Shown here in pieces: positions 1 through 6,278 of a DNA stretch of 6,491 nt; the first letter of the stretch is position 1; every line of letters starts with the position of its first letter. The position numbers were made by a program, and so were the translations under genes. The stretch is from contig DDYO01000018.1 of assembly GCA_002348045.1 (NCBI GenBank), forward strand, positions 1 through 6,491, in the 5' to 3' direction. The notes beneath the pieces were generated by a model. It worked only from the letters and a program-made list of their open reading frames with translations, did not search any database and was not told where the DNA came from. Origin of the DNA: Anaerolineales bacterium UBA2232. GTDB taxonomy: Bacteria; Chloroflexota; Anaerolineae; UBA2200.

Positions 1-759
1 ACCGACCTGCGCACCGCCGAGATGATCAAGTACGCTTCTAACGCTTTTCTCGCCACCAAGATCTCGTTCATTAACCAGATGGCCAACATCTGTGAGGCCG
101 TGGGCGCCGACGTAGTGGAGGTTGCTCGAGGAATGGGCATGGACAAGCGCATCGGGCCTGCGTTTCTGGCGGCGGGACTGGGCTGGGGGGGGTCGTGCTT
201 TCCCAAGGATGTCAAGGCGCTGACGCACATTGCTGCCATGCATGGATGTCACCCTCAGCTCCTGAGGGCGGTGACCGAGATCAACTACGACCAACGCAAG
301 CAGGTGGTCATCAGGCTACGGGAGATACTGGGTACCTTTCGGGGCAAGGTGGTCGGCTTGCTTGGTCTGTCCTTCAAGCCGAACACGGATGACATGCGTG
401 ATGCTGCTTCGGTGGACATCGCCCATTTCCTCAGAAACGAAGGCGCCCAGGTAAGAGGATACGATCCTGTTGCCATCGCCAATGCCCGCAAAGTCCTTCC
501 GCACGTTACCTTCTGCGATACGCCCTACGGTGTGGCCGAAGGCGCAGATGCACTGATCCTGGTTACCGAGTGGAACGAGTTCAAGCAGCTGGACATGCAG
601 AGGATCGCTGCATCCATGCGCAGACCGGTGCTGATGGATGCTCGCAACATCTACGATCCTCGCAAGATGCGCAGCCTTGGCTTCGTGTACGCCGGCATAG
701 GCCGAGGAAGTATCGGGCTCGATGAGCCCGAGGCTCCCGACGTGGAGTTGTTGCCATGA
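1..759 (+). CDS. UDP-glucose 6-dehydrogenase, first copy (5' end outside window)
   Basis: This is the C-terminal 252 residues of a UDP-glucose 6-dehydrogenase, an NAD(P)-linked cytosolic enzyme that oxidises UDP-glucose twice to UDP-glucuronate, a precursor of acidic surface polysaccharides. The frame is open from base 1, so the ATG at 22 is an internal methionine and not the start; the Rossmann domain that binds the nucleotide cofactor lies outside the window. Visible are the central-domain motif with the conserved lysine (EMIKYASN, from residue 7), the catalytic cysteine in [10 protein letters not shown] (Cys66 of the visible part, codon 196-198), and the C-terminal UDP-binding domain with [14 protein letters not shown] and [10 protein letters not shown]. 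It aligns without gaps to residues 196-431 of the downstream copy at roughly 77% identity by hand count, then diverges into an acidic, proline-containing tail. The gene ends with TGA. The family call is very safe; the sugar substrate is inferred from the family. Confidence 0.95.
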
Positions 760-924: not shown

Positions 925-2244
925 ATGAGGAACATCTGCGTGATCGGCGTTGGATACGTGGGATTGGTTACCGGAGCCTGCCTGGCGGACCTGGGCAACC
1001 GAGTCGTGTGTGTGAACCGCAGTGAGGAAAAGGCCAGCAATCTCAAAAAGGGCATCCTGCCCATCTTTGAGCCGGGTCTTGAGGAGATCGTGCGCCGCAA
1101 CTATGATGCGGGCCGTCTGGATTTCACCACCTCATACGATGAGGGCCTGAAGGATGTGGAGTTCGTTTTCATTGCCGTAGGCACTCCCTCAGGAAGCGAG
1201 GGTGAGGCTGACCTCTCCCACGTTACCGACGCTGCAGAGGAAATCGCCAAGCGGCTGGTGCATCCCGTGGTCATTATCAACAAGAGCACAGTGCCTATTG
1301 GAACCGGTGACTGGGTTGCAGATGTTGTCAATACTTACCGCGTCGGCCAGGCTGAGTTTGCGGTGGTTTCCAATCCAGAGTTCTTGAGGGAAGGTTCAGG
1401 CGTCTACGACTTTATGAATCCTGACCGAATCGTCTTAGGCTCCACCAATCCGGCGGCGGCGCAGAAGGTTGCCGAATTGTACACCCCGCTGCCGGCGCCC
1501 ACGATAATTACGGACCTGCGCACCGCCGAGATGATCAAATATGCGTCCAACTGCTTCCTGGCCACCAAGATCTCGTTCGTCAACGAGATGGCCAACATCT
1601 GCGAGGCATTGGGCGCCGACGTCATCGAGGTTGCCCGAGGTATGGGTGCTGACAAGCGAATTGGCCATGCGTTCCTGAGCGCGGGCGTAGGTTGGGGGGG
1701 CTCTTGTTTCCCCAAAGATGTCAAGGCACTCGCCCACATTGCGGCGACCCATGGCTGCCATCCGCAGATGCTGCGAGCCGTCATGGAAATCAACTATGAC
1801 CAGCGGAAGCGGGTTATCCAAAAGCTCCGGGAGGTCCTGGTTTCGTTCCGCGGCAAGACGGTTGGTATCCTGGGACTCTCCTTCAAACCCAATACCGATG
1901 ACATGCGCGACGCCCCATCAATCGAGATTATCCACATGCTTCAGCACGAGGGTGCGCGTATCAAAGCATATGACCCGGTGGCCATGAACAATGCCAAACG
2001 AATCTTGGATCATGTGGAATACTGCGACGATCCCTACTCCGTCGCGGAGGACGCTGACGCTCTGGTCCTGATCACCGAATGGAACGAGTTCAAGCAGTTG
2101 GACATGCAGCGGATTCTGGGTTCCATGCGGCAGCCGTTTCTCCTTGATGGCCGCAACATCTACGAGCCGACCAAGATGCGATCCCTTGGGTTCGTGTACC
2201 GAGGCATTGGGCGCGGGTACGATGCCAATGGCCAACCCCTGTAG
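925..2244 (+). CDS. UDP-glucose 6-dehydrogenase, second copy (complete, 439 aa)
   Basis: This complete cytosolic UDP-glucose 6-dehydrogenase converts UDP-glucose to UDP-glucuronate with two molecules of nicotinamide cofactor. The start is ATG behind AAGGAG (908-913), and translation opens directly into the Rossmann glycine motif GVGYVG (residues 8-13). Further landmarks are the second-half nucleotide-domain segments FIAVGTP (82-88) and STVPIGTG (121-128), NPEFLREG with Glu152, the conserved Lys205 in EMIKYASN, the catalytic Cys261 in [10 protein letters not shown], and the UDP-binding C-terminal domain from about residue 310 ([21 protein letters not shown] region). The length is normal for the bacterial family. 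One oddity: the end of the second beta strand reads VCVNRSEEK, with Asn31-Arg32-Ser33 where NAD-dependent relatives usually carry Asp. It is a close paralog of the gene ending at 759, has its own promoter, and is followed after 11 bases by acpS. The names ugd, tuaD or rkpK are used for such genes; I cannot choose between them. Confidence 0.96.
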
Positions 2245-2255
2245 GAAGTGTCTCA

Positions 2256-2630
2256 GTGATCAGCACTGGTGTGGACATCGTCGAAATAGAGCGTATCGGA
2301 AGGGCCTGTCGGCGATGGGAGGAGCGTTTCCTGCAGCGAGTGTACACTCCCTCTGAGCGTTCTCTGTGTAGAGGTCGAGTGCCCGAGCTCGCGGCCCGAT
2401 TTGCGGGCAAAGAGGCCATGTCCAAGGCCTTGGGCACGGGTCTTGTTGGCGTTTCCTGGCGGGAAATGGAAGTGCTGGCTGACGCGCTCGGAAAGCCTTT
2501 CGTGGTGCTGCATGGGCGGGCCGCGAAAAGAGCGGAGACACTCGGCCTTGCCGAGTTTGCTATTAGTCTCTCACATTCGAAGGACTTGGCGATCGCTTTG
2601 GTGGTGGCGGGCAGCAATGGTAAAGATTGA
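2256..2630 (+). CDS. acpS: Holo-[acyl-carrier-protein] synthase
   Basis: AcpS transfers the 4'-phosphopantetheine arm from coenzyme A to a serine of apo acyl carrier protein, making the active carrier for fatty acid synthesis. At 124 residues it has the usual length of the short AcpS-type phosphopantetheinyl transferases. The magnesium-binding Asp is in GVDIVEIERI (Asp7), the second metal ligand Glu53 is in RFAGKEAMSKALGTG (residues 48-62), GKPFVVL (79-85) follows, and SLSHSKD (104-110) closes the domain. The start is GTG at 2256, preceded by AGGAAG (2243-2248), which itself overlaps the stop of the dehydrogenase. No earlier start gives a better N-terminus, since MISTGVDIVE is the standard AcpS opening. 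The last 14 bases overlap the next gene, suggesting translational coupling. The call is secure. Confidence 0.96.
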   Translation: MISTGVDIVEIERIGRACRRWEERFLQRVYTPSERSLCRGRVPELAARFAGKEAMSKALGTGLVGVSWREMEVLADALGKPFVVLHGRAAKRAETLGLAEFAISLSHSKDLAIALVVAGSNGKD

Positions 2631-2871
2631 CGGTAACCTGCGGGCGAAGGTGCAGCAGCATCCCGACGAACCGGTGCGGCTGATCGTAAGAGTGGACGGT
2701 GACCTCTCGGAGGCGGCGAGGCGTCTTGCCGCTCGTGGAGCCAAGGCGGCCAAGACCCTCAAGCTGATTAATGCGGTTGTCGTGACATGCCGAGGCAAGG
2801 ACGTCTCGGCGTTGGCACAAGAGCCCTTTGTGCGGTCGGTAGAAGAGGACCACAAGGTGCGTACACAGTAG
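2617..2871 (+). CDS. Free-standing subtilisin propeptide-like protein (inhibitor I9 fold)
   Basis: This 84-residue protein has no signal peptide and matches the layout of the subtilisin propeptide / inhibitor I9 domain: strand RLIVRVDGD (21-29), helix SEAARRLAARG (31-41), strand TLKLINAVVVTC (47-58), helix GKDVSALAQEP (60-70), and final strand VRSVEEDHKV (72-81). The VEED motif followed by a short C-terminal tail (VRTQ) is the hallmark of propeptides and of the independent inhibitors of yeast proteinase B type, whose tails enter the protease active site. The start ATG (2617) lies inside the end of acpS, in another frame, with only a weak GC-rich SD (GGCGGG region) upstream, so it is probably translated by coupling to acpS. 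A subtilisin-like protease begins 108 bases downstream. Role inferred: inhibitor of, or folding helper for, that protease. The fold is assigned from pattern, not from a search; a degraded propeptide remnant is the main alternative. Confidence 0.75.
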   Translation: MVKIDGNLRAKVQQHPDEPVRLIVRVDGDLSEAARRLAARGAKAAKTLKLINAVVVTCRGKDVSALAQEPFVRSVEEDHKVRTQ

Positions 2872-2882
2872 CAGTAGTACTT

Positions 2883-2903
2883 GTCGCTGGGCCGCCCAGC
2901 GGT
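2883..2903 (+). other. Strong hairpin between the I9-like gene and the protease gene
   Basis: CGCTGGG (2885-2891) and CCCAGCG (2895-2901) pair perfectly around the loop CCG, and two G-U wobbles extend the stem to 2883-2903. It begins 12 bases after the stop codon of the I9-like gene. The sequence behind it (GTTCAACATG) lacks a T tract, so it is not a convincing intrinsic terminator. A weaker second stem, GCCG (2921-2924) with CGGC (2932-2935), follows in the same gap. They may tune mRNA stability so that the small protein and the protease are made in different amounts; this is inference. Confidence 0.4.
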
Positions 2904-2967
2904 TCAACATGCTGCATCGGGCCGGCTGTAGCGGCGTCCCTTTGATGATAGAGTCGGTGTCCCCAGC

Positions 2968-2974
2968 AAGGAGG
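2968..2974 (+). promoter_or_regulatory. SD AAGGAGG fixing the protease GTG start
   Basis: AAGGAGG is a full-strength Shine-Dalgarno sequence five bases before GTG at 2980. It decides the start of the protease in a frame that is otherwise open back to the TAG at 2929, and it argues for independent translation initiation rather than fusion to the I9-like protein upstream. Confidence 0.85.
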
Positions 2975-2979
2975 CGACC

Positions 2980-4197
2980 GTGGGCGATATCAAGATTGCA
3001 CATGGGCTGCTTGAGAGCATGCGTGCGCCTGGTGCGGCGCCTGAGCACCGGGTAATCGTCGCCTATCGGCGTGACGTCTCCCTGGCCAGCAGGCCTGCTG
3101 TTGGCAGGGCTGCCCTGAGGCAGCTGACCCTGATTCCGGCAACCGCCCTGAGCCTGAACCTGGACCAGGTGCGGCAGTTGGCAGCCGACCCCACAGTTGA
3201 ACGCATTTGGCCGGACCTTGTCGTTCGCACTTGTTTGAACGCCTCGGTACCCCACATCCGCGCCCCAGAAGTCTGGACCGCCGGGTACTCTGGTAGGCAG
3301 GTACCCGTCGGTATCGTCGACACAGGCATCGATGCAGGTCATCCGGACTTTGTGGGTCGGATTGCGGCGATGTACGACGTGACGGGCGAAGGCTCCAAGG
3401 ACAATCATGGGCATGGGACCCATGTTGCCGGAATCGTGGGGGGTGCAGGGAGCCTCTACCGCGGCGTTGCGCCCGACTGCGCGCTGCACGTGGCCAAGGT
3501 CCTGCATGCTGACGGCTCGGGCTACATGAGTGAAGTCATCGCCGGGCTTGAATGGGTTGTCGAACAAGGCGTGAAAGTGGTTAACCTTTCCCTGGGGGGC
3601 GTGGGTCCCTGCGATGGTTCGGACGCCCTTTCCGTGGCTTGCGATGCGGCGGTCGATCGAGGAATTGTGGTCTGCGTGGCGGCAGGCAACTATGGTCCGC
3701 AGGCTGCCTCTGTAGGGCCTCCAGGATGCGCCCGTAAGGTCCTAACGGTCGGTGCTTCATCAGTTGTCGATGCTGTACCGTCGTTCTCTGCCCGCGGCCC
3801 CACGTCCGATGGGCGCATCAAACCGGACATCCTCATGCCTGGAGTGGACGTTGTGTCGTGTAGAGCAACCGACACCAGCATGGGCGCGCCATTGGACACG
3901 CTGTACACGCGAGCTTCAGGGACGAGCATGGCTGCTCCCCATGCCGCAGGTGTTGCGGCCCTTCTGCTGGAGGCCTTCCCCGGCCTAACTCCGGCACAAG
4001 TGAAGGACCGCATGATGACCACAAGCTGTGATCTCAGCCTTGATCCCAACACTCAGGGAAAAGGACGGGGAGATGCTTACCATGCCTACCTGGGCACTCC
4101 TTCCGGGCCTCCGGTCACACCTCCGGCATCTGGATGCCTGACAGCAGTCGCAAACTGGTTCGTAGTTGCCGCAACGGCCTTTCGGCGGGGTGGTTAG
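2980..4197 (+). CDS. Subtilisin-family (S8) serine protease, no signal peptide
   Basis: This 405-residue subtilase hydrolyses peptide bonds with an Asp-His-Ser triad: Asp114 in GIVDTGIDAGHPDF, His145 in NHGHGTHVAGI and Ser316 in SGTSMAAPHAAG. The oxyanion-hole Asn237 sits in AAGNYGP. Residues 23-87 (HRVIVAYRRD to VVRTCLN) resemble a short propeptide of the I9 type, with VERIWPDLVV as its last strand, so the mature enzyme probably begins near residues 85-90. The start is GTG behind AAGGAGG. No hydrophobic N-terminal signal is visible, and nine cysteines are present; both fit a cytosolic enzyme better than a classically secreted one. The C-terminus has a proline-rich linker (GTPSGPPVTPPASG, 372-385), then about 15 hydrophobic residues (387-401) and RRGG, a possible tail anchor. 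The I9-like gene just upstream is its likely partner. Protease activity is safe; location and substrate are unknown. Confidence 0.95.
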   Translation: MGDIKIAHGLLESMRAPGAAPEHRVIVAYRRDVSLASRPAVGRAALRQLTLIPATALSLNLDQVRQLAADPTVERIWPDLVVRTCLNASVPHIRAPEVWTAGYSGRQVPVGIVDTGIDAGHPDFVGRIAAMYDVTGEGSKDNHGHGTHVAGIVGGAGSLYRGVAPDCALHVAKVLHADGSGYMSEVIAGLEWVVEQGVKVVNLSLGGVGPCDGSDALSVACDAAVDRGIVVCVAAGNYGPQAASVGPPGCARKVLTVGASSVVDAVPSFSARGPTSDGRIKPDILMPGVDVVSCRATDTSMGAPLDTLYTRASGTSMAAPHAAGVAALLLEAFPGLTPAQVKDRMMTTSCDLSLDPNTQGKGRGDAYHAYLGTPSGPPVTPPASGCLTAVANWFVVAATAFRRGG

Positions 4198-4256
4198 CCA
4201 GAGCTGCACCTGGTCCGAGATACCCTTTCTAGACTTTCACCAAGAGGACAACAGCC

Positions 4257-6278
4257 ATGACCCTAAATCCAATCTGGTTCGTGTTCCCCATCGTTGGAGT
4301 GTTGGGCACAGTGTTGGCGTACTACCTTGCTGTTCTGACCCTGCGACACGAACCGGGTCCGCCCGAGGTTGTCAGGTTCTCCGCCATCATACAGAAGGGT
4401 GCGGCAACCTTTCTTCGTCGGCAGTACCGCGCGATGTTGGTGCCAGGCATGCTTTTTGCGGGCTTTCTGCTGGTCGCTCTCAATGTGTACCTCATGCTGA
4501 CCTTCGTCATGGGGGTGGTTACGTCAGTCCTGGCTGGCTACGTGGGGATGCGGATCGCGACACAGGCGAACGGACGAACGACCTTCGCCGCGCGACTCGG
4601 ACCCAACCACGCCCTGGATGTTGCTTTCACCGGTGGGGCTGTGCTGGGAATGGCGGCAGTTAGCCTGGGCGTCTTTGGTATTTCCAGCGTGTACTTGATT
4701 TTTGCCAGTATCGGGGCGCTTCCAGATCCGCTCACTGTCCTAACCGGCTACTCCTTGGGAGCGAGTTTCGCTGCGATATTTGCTCGCATCGGGGGAGGAA
4801 TCTTCACCAAGGCAGCCGATGTCGGAGCTGATATGGTAGGCAAAATGGAGGTAGGTATCCCAGAAGATGATCCGCGCAACGCGGCGGTCATCGCTGATAA
4901 CGTAGGCGACAATGTGGGTGATGTCGCAGGAATGGGTGCGGACACTTACCAGGCCTACGTAGATACTACGATTGCCTCGCTTCTCCTGGGGGCGACAGCC
5001 ACCACTGCGGTGGGTGCTCGGTTCGGAGAAAAAGCCCTGATCTTCCCTCTCGCCGTGATGGTTGCGGGGATCGTGGGTTCGGTGCTGGGAATCGTGACGG
5101 TCAAGTTCCTTGCCCGCACCGAGAAGGTGCCGCCCGAAACGCTATTGAGACTGGGCATGGTAAGCAGTGGCGGATTCACTGTGATAGGTATTCTGGGCCT
5201 CGCCGTCGTCTATTTGGGTGACATACGTGCTTTCGTCGCCACGGCAACGGGCCTAGCCTCCGGCGTGGTCATCGGATTGATTACCGAGCACTACACCTCG
5301 GGCCGTCCCGTTGCGCTAATCGCTGCATCGTCCGAGTCAGGGGCAGCGACGACCATCATCACGGGTTTGGGTGTTGGAATGCAAAGCACGGTGTTGCCAA
5401 TGATCATCTTGGGAGTCTCCATGGTGGTGTCTTTTGGTGCCATGGGCGTCTATGGCATCTCGCTCTCTGGAGTTGGGCTTTTGTCAATACTAGGCATCAC
5501 GCTGGCCATGGATGGCTATGGCCCCATTGCGGATAACGCGGGCGGCATCGCCGAGATGACACACCAAGACCCGCGGATTCGCCGCATCACCGACCGGTTG
5601 GACGCAGCGGGTAACACGACGGCGGCCATTGCCAAGGCCTTTGCCGTGAGCGCGACGGCGGCGGCGGCTCTGTCATTGCTCACCGCGTACGCTCAGGCTG
5701 CGGCCGTTGACCGTTTGGACATACGGGACGCTCGGGTGATGGCTGGCCTGATCATTGGTGGCTCTCTTCCCGCCTTGGTATCTTCCATGTCGCTCAAGGC
5801 AGTGGGTCGTACCGCTGGAGAGATCGTAGCCGAGGTACGACGGCAGTTCAGCGAGATCGCTGGACTGCGAGAGGGCCGCGTCGAGCCAGATTATCAGAGG
5901 TGCATCGACATCGCTGCGGCGGGTGCCCTGGCGCAATTGGTCTTGCCATGTGTGACAGCGCTGGCCGCTCCGTTTGTGGTCGCGTTCACACTGGGTCGGG
6001 AGGCTTTGGCTGGGTTCATAGCCGGGAACATCGTAAGCGGCATTTTTCTGGCCATTTTCATGGCCAATGCCGGTGGAGCATGGGACAACGCCAAGAAGTT
6101 GATCGAATCCGGCGCGCATGGCGGCAAAGGTTCACGGGCCCACCAGGCCAGCGTGATCGGGGATACCGTTGGAGATCCATTGAAAGACACGGCAGGCCCG
6201 ACGCTCAATATCCTGGTCGAGCTGGTCGCAGCCGTTTCGCTGGCGTTCGTGCCATTGTTTCTCCGTTTCATCCGGTAG
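4257..6278 (+). CDS. hppA: Membrane-bound proton-translocating pyrophosphatase, K+-dependent type
   Basis: This integral membrane enzyme splits pyrophosphate to phosphate and uses the energy to pump cations across the membrane. At 673 residues it has the normal length and is hydrophobic throughout, consistent with the roughly 16 helices of the family. Substrate and metal motifs are intact: DVGADMVGKMEVG (188-200), EDDPRN (203-208), DNVGDNVGDVAGMGAD (214-229), MDGYGPIADNAGG (418-430) and GDTVGDPLKDTAGP (635-648). GNTTAAIAK (452-460) carries Ala456 and Ala459 where potassium-independent enzymes have Lys and Thr, so potassium dependence is expected. At the ion gate, Gln232 replaces the Glu of sodium-pumping Thermotoga-type enzymes and Asp236 occupies the site of the plant-enzyme Glu, so proton pumping is more likely than sodium, though not certain. 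The start ATG follows AAGAGGA (4242-4248), 59 bases after the protease gene; the next gene begins eight bases after its stop. Confidence 0.96.
   Translation: MTLNPIWFVFPIVGVLGTVLAYYLAVLTLRHEPGPPEVVRFSAIIQKGAATFLRRQYRAMLVPGMLFAGFLLVALNVYLMLTFVMGVVTSVLAGYVGMRIATQANGRTTFAARLGPNHALDVAFTGGAVLGMAAVSLGVFGISSVYLIFASIGALPDPLTVLTGYSLGASFAAIFARIGGGIFTKAADVGADMVGKMEVGIPEDDPRNAAVIADNVGDNVGDVAGMGADTYQAYVDTTIASLLLGATATTAVGARFGEKALIFPLAVMVAGIVGSVLGIVTVKFLARTEKVPPETLLRLGMVSSGGFTVIGILGLAVVYLGDIRAFVATATGLASGVVIGLITEHYTSGRPVALIAASSESGAATTIITGLGVGMQSTVLPMIILGVSMVVSFGAMGVYGISLSGVGLLSILGITLAMDGYGPIADNAGGIAEMTHQDPRIRRITDRLDAAGNTTAAIAKAFAVSATAAAALSLLTAYAQAAAVDRLDIRDARVMAGLIIGGSLPALVSSMSLKAVGRTAGEIVAEVRRQFSEIAGLREGRVEPDYQRCIDIAAAGALAQLVLPCVTALAAPFVVAFTLGREALAGFIAGNIVSGIFLAIFMANAGGAWDNAKKLIESGAHGGKGSRAHQASVIGDTVGDPLKDTAGPTLNILVELVAAVSLAFVPLFLRFIR

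Follow-up and report, generated by a model that had tools for sequence, protein, structure and literature searches.

Free-standing inhibitors of the I9 propeptide type are on record from eukaryotes, where PMC6993865 names SUB1-ProM, PBI2, POIA1, SPI-1, and TgMIC5, and a statement in PMC6220982 describes the regulation of intracellular subtilases in bacteria as poorly known. Here, we discuss a bacterial gene pair on a 6,491-nucleotide (nt) stretch of contig DDYO01000018.1 from Anaerolineales bacterium UBA2232 (the whole stretch is referred to as the window), in which the gene of a propeptide-like protein of 84 amino acids (aa), the 84-mer, precedes that of an S8 subtilase made without a signal peptide and equipped with its own cis propeptide. 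Fold prediction, propeptide homology, conserved pairing, the C-terminal end point, and a Glu/Asp signature were established by computation. Judged from sequence-based evidence, it is likely that the 84-mer is a dedicated trans-acting, product-like inhibitor of the adjoining intracellular subtilase; perhaps it is also a folding aid. By the open-access literature searched, a bacterial gene pair conserved in this way, one propeptide acting in cis and the other presumably in trans, seems to be new, stand-alone I9 inhibitors as such being already known in eukaryotes.

The propeptide-like protein and its partner protease

The 84-mer is encoded by its own open reading frame (ORF) with its own stop, apart from the enzyme precursor. 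Both the coordinates (Table 1) and the VEEDHKVRTQ end given in the initial annotation are correct, and its description as a free-standing I9-like protein is backed by phmmer, profile, AlphaFold2, and Foldseek results alike. A phmmer search of the Protein Data Bank (PDB) with the 84-mer retrieved the propeptide of subtilisin E (1scj_B, E 9e-4), and a family profile of 58 sequences (the window protein, P0002, and 56 from the loci described below) matches the Tk-subtilisin propeptide (E 2.2e-9); the same profile search also lists two designed PPR proteins, of which no single stretch passes alone. The tail VEEDHKV aligns with VEEDHVA of the BPN' propeptide, and gapless extension of this alignment puts Gln84 on the final residue of the 78-residue BPN' chain. 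For the 84-mer alone, a complete subtilisin-propeptide (I9-type) fold is predicted by AlphaFold2 (mean pLDDT 92.6), with an extra N-terminal helix added to the I9 topology and a looser tail. While the strand-helix-strand-helix-strand pattern originally read from the sequence is propeptide-like, the modelled order is a helix followed by strand-helix-strand-strand-helix-strand (DSSP of the model: H6–14, E19–26, H30–39, E43–48, E53–59, H60–67, E72–77). The top Foldseek match is ProN-Tk-SP (3afg; E 1.3e-4, TMq 0.79), ahead of pro-subtilisin E, the Tk-subtilisin propeptide, and the BPN' prosegment, with POIA1 at rank 42. Among 5.8 billion proteins, the 84-mer found one relative as a single sequence and 44 entries, including the query, by profile; the named ones are all called "hypothetical protein". 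A protein database lists PF26036.1 for the 84-mer (protein P0001).

The partner protease matches PF00082 (E 2.2e-61), and its residues D114, H145, N237, and S316, which by analogy with subtilisin we take to be the catalytic triad and the oxyanion Asn, are invariant among 29 aligned relatives. Its closest solved relative is Tk-SP; named relatives are from Chloroflexi or Anaerolineae, and at least 1223 relatives at E 1e-40 are present among the best 7998 candidates of the 5.8-billion-protein search. The Ser motif is kept in 149 of 150 related proteases (146 by loosened patterns, three further ones accepted by eye), the exception being locus L219 with Arg at the Ser position; the partners of the stand-alone proteins therefore look active, as far as this motif tells. 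In keeping with the cytosolic appearance initially ascribed to the enzyme, a crude hydropathy test found no hydrophobic N-terminal stretch in the window protease, and a mean hydropathy above 1.8 over 12 residues, likewise a crude signal-peptide test, occurred in two of 150 related proteases and in none of 119 stand-alones. The ORF begins with GTG behind an AAGGAGG ribosome site at 2968–2974.

The shorter propeptide that had been ascribed to the protease itself is present, its extent in the model being residues 23–85 rather than 23–87. The model (mean pLDDT 81.7) gives this cis propeptide strands 23–29, 47–49, 54–59, and 73–78 and helix 61–68, with helix 1 reduced to a three-residue stub (35–37); searched alone against the PDB by phmmer, the region has no match at E ≤ 1. 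The LIPY/F pro-peptide of intracellular subtilisins was not found in the protease, whose N-terminus is the I9-like cis propeptide of about 63 residues; by sequence and model, a LIPA string therein precedes a strand and not Tyr or Phe. At the other end (4099–4194), the protease carries a Pro-rich linker, then a Gly-Cys-Leu that is conserved, and finally a short helix. Of 129 complete relatives, 112 have a [GA]C[LWIRFM] motif among their final 60 residues, and G385 and C386 are invariant in the alignment of relatives; perhaps, this C-terminus serves attachment to the membrane or to a partner.

Conservation of the gene pair and its C-terminal signature

Adjacency was surveyed in 155 protease loci plus the window (156 loci); in the class sample introduced below, loci were fetched down to about E 9e-93, a route that did not reach ten weaker genomes. 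The hidden Markov model (HMM) for stand-alones was built from 17 sequences, 16 of which lie inside this set. A same-strand stand-alone was found upstream of the protease in 128 of the 156 loci and in 91 of the 110 held-out, seed-free loci (L131–L240); restricted to the 108 loci that offer 330 nt or more of upstream sequence, the count is 89. The conserved adjacency that the initial annotation proposed to look for is thus supported. Given this recurrence in most relatives examined, the pairing is more than chance. Little weight is placed on L130 and L210 (too little upstream sequence) and L191 (partly masked). In six-frame translations (≥40 aa) of 527,408 nt, the HMM had no hit of at least 20 bits beyond protease-upstream sites and cis propeptides, the latter accounting for 55 hits. 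From the stand-alone stop to the protease start, the gap has a median of 26 nt; it is at most 150 nt in 107 and at most 0 in 18 of 122 loci (of the 128, L219 and five in which the protease start could not be placed are not counted) and amounts to 108 nt in the window, with a good ribosome site ahead of the GTG. A promoter and terminator scan of 2200–4300 gave no promoter-like site and three terminator-like ones (1.3 expected), none between stand-alone and protease.

Of the adjacent stand-alones, 127 are separate ORFs. The remaining one, at L219 (open frame from 1483), shares a frame with the protease, which has Arg at the catalytic Ser position; to judge by its sequence, either the tandem-propeptide protein is inactive or the draft is faulty, and without the catalytic Ser it says little on ancestry or function. 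L233 was rejected as a second fused case, as its frame stops and the separate ORF is nested in another frame. Second paralogues with open frames of 704–948 aa and no adjacent stand-alone occur at L147, L150, L152, L173, L175, and L177, in genomes holding a pair elsewhere; another long-frame protease, at L114, has an adjacent stand-alone.

The two genes also occur together at the genome level. The class sample comprised 396 genomes of the class of G002 (locus L002, Caldilineales bacterium), which we take to be Anaerolineae. Thresholds were E ≤ 1e-70 for the protease and E ≤ 1e-13 for the stand-alone, the latter falling in a score gap bounded by 54.5 bits above and by the first cis propeptide (51.0 bits) below; absences are soft, since at most four (protease) or 13 (profile) first-look candidates were scored per genome. 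Both genes are present in 139 genomes, the protease alone in 16, the stand-alone alone in three, and neither in 238 (Fisher p 8e-84, relatedness not removed); hence, the stand-alone gene is found in 139 of 155 protease-bearing genomes versus three of 241 others. In these three (G550, G576, G594; L254–L256), a protease start lies just downstream, cut by the contig end. At E ≤ 1e-4, cis propeptides included, the profile matches 178 of the 396 genomes. It also scores long frames elsewhere in the sample (S8 status unchecked) up to 49.7 bits, about as high as the best cis propeptides (51.0 and 50.3). In a 400-genome phylum sample, small-frame stand-alones were found in seven genomes, six of them shared with the class sample, and all seven are among the ten with the protease.

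The stand-alone C-terminus has the consensus E-x-D-x-x-V-[HR]-[TA]-[ML] followed by the stop, and the cis junction reads W-x-D-x-x-V-H-T-C|L-D. Aligned to the cis junction, the chain ends exactly at the P1-equivalent in 61 of 127 stand-alones (the fused L219 omitted) and between -1 and +4 in 100 of them; the earlier idea of the VRTQ end lying in the active-site cleft agrees with this alignment, by which the stand-alone tail is placed like a P4–P1 ligand and seems able to fill S4–S1 with the chain ending near P1. Of 127 stand-alones, 121 carry Glu at P9 and 123 carry Asp at P7; in cis propeptides, P9 is aromatic (Trp/Tyr/Phe) and P7 is Asp without exception (150 of 150 each; L084, whose alignment ends early, and, for cis, six loci without a cis hit are omitted). 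The aromatic P9 of all 150 aligned cis propeptides (window Trp77, 3208–3210) differs from the Glu of the BPN' propeptide and of most stand-alones. According to PMC6993865, Glu69 and Asp71 of the BPN' propeptide, and their SUB1 equivalents, cap catalytic-domain helices; by analogy, Glu76 and Asp78 of the 84-mer would be a helix-capping pair.

In eight genomes (G410, G435, G457, G557, G614, G578, G545, G596), a stand-alone is present away from the protease. Those of G410 and G435 lie on other contigs, one followed by a GDP-mannose dehydratase gene and the other, at a contig end, preceded by a transpeptidase gene. In the other six (L248–L253), oligoendopeptidase F (M3; Pfam was run on two of the six genomes) is encoded downstream on the same strand. 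The distance is 18–58 nt in four of them; in G614 and G557 (L249, L250), where small ORFs intervene, it is 679 and 692 nt. This neighbourhood hints at a shared protein-turnover unit. The family profile had 22 matches in 39 genomes whose loci fall between L006 and L079, at least four of these genomes being Chloroflexota. Presumably, the 21 in frames of at least 349 aa are enzyme precursors; the remaining one is a 95-aa frame in G773 (locus L062, Litorilinea aerophila) that is followed by the protease (L263). In 168 genomes (149 of the phylum of G742, whose locus is titled Desulforudis, and 19 others that are outside Chloroflexota by title), Pfam I9 gave 33 + 28 = 61 matches, none in an open frame below 253 aa; since only 16 of the 58 family members are recognized by it at E ≤ 0.1 (best 5e-5), it could overlook stand-alones that have diverged. 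With this limit, free-standing I9 genes look rare outside this bacterial group. A 188-aa frame (G238:C589) was rejected as an exception: it is the first part of an S8-like precursor that the contig end truncates, and its N-terminus is signal-like.

The remaining genes of the window are included in Table 1. The two dehydrogenase-like genes adjoin each other and are, by eye, mutually similar. Coupling of the stand-alone to acpS, as initially put forward, stands as an overlap in the window and in several near relatives. It does not generalize: acpS was found within the fetched upstream sequence in 12 of the 156 loci, the window included, at a distance of 400–700 nt in two, and was thus rejected as a general partner.

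Table 1. Features of the window; nt positions count from its first letter
Feature	Position	Strand	Basis or remarks
UDP-glucose/GDP-mannose dehydrogenase-like gene, cut by window edge	1–759	+	By-eye judgement
UDP-glucose/GDP-mannose dehydrogenase-like gene, whole	925–2244	+	Pfam domain
acpS	2256–2630	+	Last 14 nt shared with stand-alone ORF (2617–2630); genomic context rather than a general component
Stand-alone I9-type propeptide-like protein, 84 aa, predicted inhibitor	2617–2871	+	phmmer, family profile, AlphaFold2, Foldseek
C-terminal segment EEDHKVRTQ of the 84-mer	2842–2868	+	Glu76 = P9, Asp78 = P7, V81 = P4, Q84 = P1-equivalent, at the chain end
S8 subtilase without signal peptide, 405 aa, AprX-like by source names of some relatives	2980–4197	+	
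Cis propeptide of the protease, residues 23–85	3046–3234	+	Trp77 = P9, Asp79 = P7, predicted junction after Cys85
Catalytic core of the protease	3319–3927	+	Asp114 3319–3321, His145 3412–3414, Asn237 3688–3690, Ser316 3925–3927
Gly-Cys-Leu and helix after Pro-rich linker, protease C-terminus	4132–4194	+	Conserved among relatives
H+ pyrophosphatase	4257–6278	+	Pfam domain

Proposed function and rival explanations

As the anatomy of the stand-alone matches the inhibition mode of a free propeptide, inhibition in trans is its most likely function. A free propeptide is reported to inhibit its own protease in the case of pernisine, with a Ki' of about 20–330 pM (PMC10580911). We infer the following course of events, from co-transcription and binding to inhibition in the cytoplasm and release. 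The 84-mer, probably translated from the same transcript and made just before the protease, would fold as a free subtilisin propeptide and dock on the propeptide surface of the enzyme, where its Glu-x-Asp pair would cap two protease helices and its free V-R-T-Q tail would sit in S4–S1, much as the end of a propeptide does after cleavage. Maturation of the protease, which lacks a signal peptide, would proceed by self-cleavage of its cis propeptide, which is short and poor in helix; the mature enzyme would then be silenced in the cytoplasm until the 84-mer is diluted, degraded, or outcompeted.

Several observations weigh against the 84-mer being such an inhibitor. In the Pfam profile check, which turned out unfavourably for the initial annotation, the 84-mer reached 16.3 bits with PF05922 (Inhibitor_I9), below the 21.2-bit cut-off. 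The cis propeptide of the protease could suffice by itself, and in 16 of the 155 protease genomes no stand-alone reaches the threshold. Nine of the 16 lack one upstream in the loci fetched, G618 is partly masked and shows a partial stand-alone, and the loci of the other six were not fetched. The P1 residue is identical between a stand-alone and the neighbouring cis propeptide in 37 of 125 pairs (22.3 on average after shuffling, p 0.0005; relatedness not removed), an agreement within cognate pairs that is suggestive only. Moreover, the P1-equivalent is Gln, an unusual P1 residue, in all eight loci of the window's clade, seven relatives of which run 8–15 residues past it; therefore, these extended stand-alones may be cut as temporary inhibitors.

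The main rival to inhibition is a folding role. The stand-alone would then be mainly a trans-acting folding chaperone, offering a full-length I9 domain as a template to a protease whose cis propeptide is nearly without helix 1 and the capping Glu. We hold this to be improbable, even though the cis model keeps only the helix 1 stub, cis P9 is aromatic where stand-alones have Glu, and passages in PMC6993865 and PMC10580911 portray bacterial subtilase propeptides as both chaperones and inhibitors. The cis β1–β2 linker, however, is alike in proteases with (n = 123) and without (n = 27) an adjacent stand-alone (Mann–Whitney p 0.85), and the 16 protease genomes lacking the stand-alone gene count against chaperoning as well. 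By the same test, the idea that a long cis helix-1 region compensates for an absent stand-alone was rejected. It is very unlikely that the stand-alone targets other subtilases, whether secreted by the same cell or foreign, and that its association with this protease is incidental. Although stand-alones diverge fast (mean pairwise identity of 32% versus 64% for catalytic domains; 119 protein pairs) and five genomes examined each have further S8 matches, a stand-alone without this protease was not found in the 396 genomes, contig ends considered, nor as a small frame in the 400-genome phylum sample. In addition, neither partner has a signal peptide by the crude hydropathy test, and the distances of stand-alones and proteases correlate (r 0.65, 0/500 permutations, shared ancestry not removed). 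Hardly any credence is given to a vestigial propeptide left without present function by fission of a two-propeptide enzyme; the one in-frame tandem among the 128 adjacent cases (L219) fits such an origin, though with Arg at the catalytic Ser position, but stand-alones still share a mean identity of about 32%, their Glu, Asp, Val, and chain end are conserved, and the gene is retained when moved away from the protease.

Inhibition by the 84-mer might also be part of a wider two-propeptide circuit, which we regard as rather unlikely in its full form. A degenerate aromatic-x-Asp cis propeptide would serve processing, and a Glu-x-Asp trans propeptide from the same operon would be needed to fold and to silence the enzyme; gene stoichiometry would set intracellular proteolysis class-wide, together with oligoendopeptidase F in one genome group.

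Significance and comparison with known systems

The stand-alone gene is a genetically linked candidate regulator of an intracellular subtilase and would extend stand-alone I9 inhibitors from eukaryotes to a bacterial operon. The 128 loci offer more than a hundred natural pairs of predicted inhibitor and protease for the study of specificity, for which the clean P9 contrast, Glu in trans versus aromatic in cis forms, is useful. No bacterial stand-alone I9/S8 pair was found among the matches listed in the open-access literature, by which absence from print is not established.

The eukaryotic inhibitors—yeast proteinase B inhibitor 2, Pleurotus POIA1, Arabidopsis SPI-1, Toxoplasma MIC5, and Plasmodium SUB1-ProM—are, as described in PMC6993865, likewise small free propeptide-fold proteins, and the same source places SUB1-ProM in a conserved locus beside subtilase genes. 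Unlike these, the gene of the 84-mer, a predicted inhibitor, is bacterial and stands directly before that of one intracellular-looking S8 protease with its own cis propeptide. The closest folds and profile matches of both partners are found in Tk-SP and Tk-subtilisin of Thermococcus kodakarensis, where the propeptide domain belongs to the enzyme precursor and is removed after translation, whereas here it has a separate gene. Among bacterial systems, Bacillus subtilis IPI is likewise reported to be an intracellular inhibitor of an intracellular subtilisin, Isp1, but it has an Ig-like fold, and its genes are not near the subtilisin gene in completely sequenced genomes, according to PMC3901451, where inhibition as its main role is also questioned. 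Finally, the intracellular subtilisins of the LIPY/F type are likewise S8 proteases without signal peptide that are held inactive in the cell, as stated in PMC6220982; they differ in that this relies on a cis pro-peptide with the LIPY/F motif and not on a separate gene.

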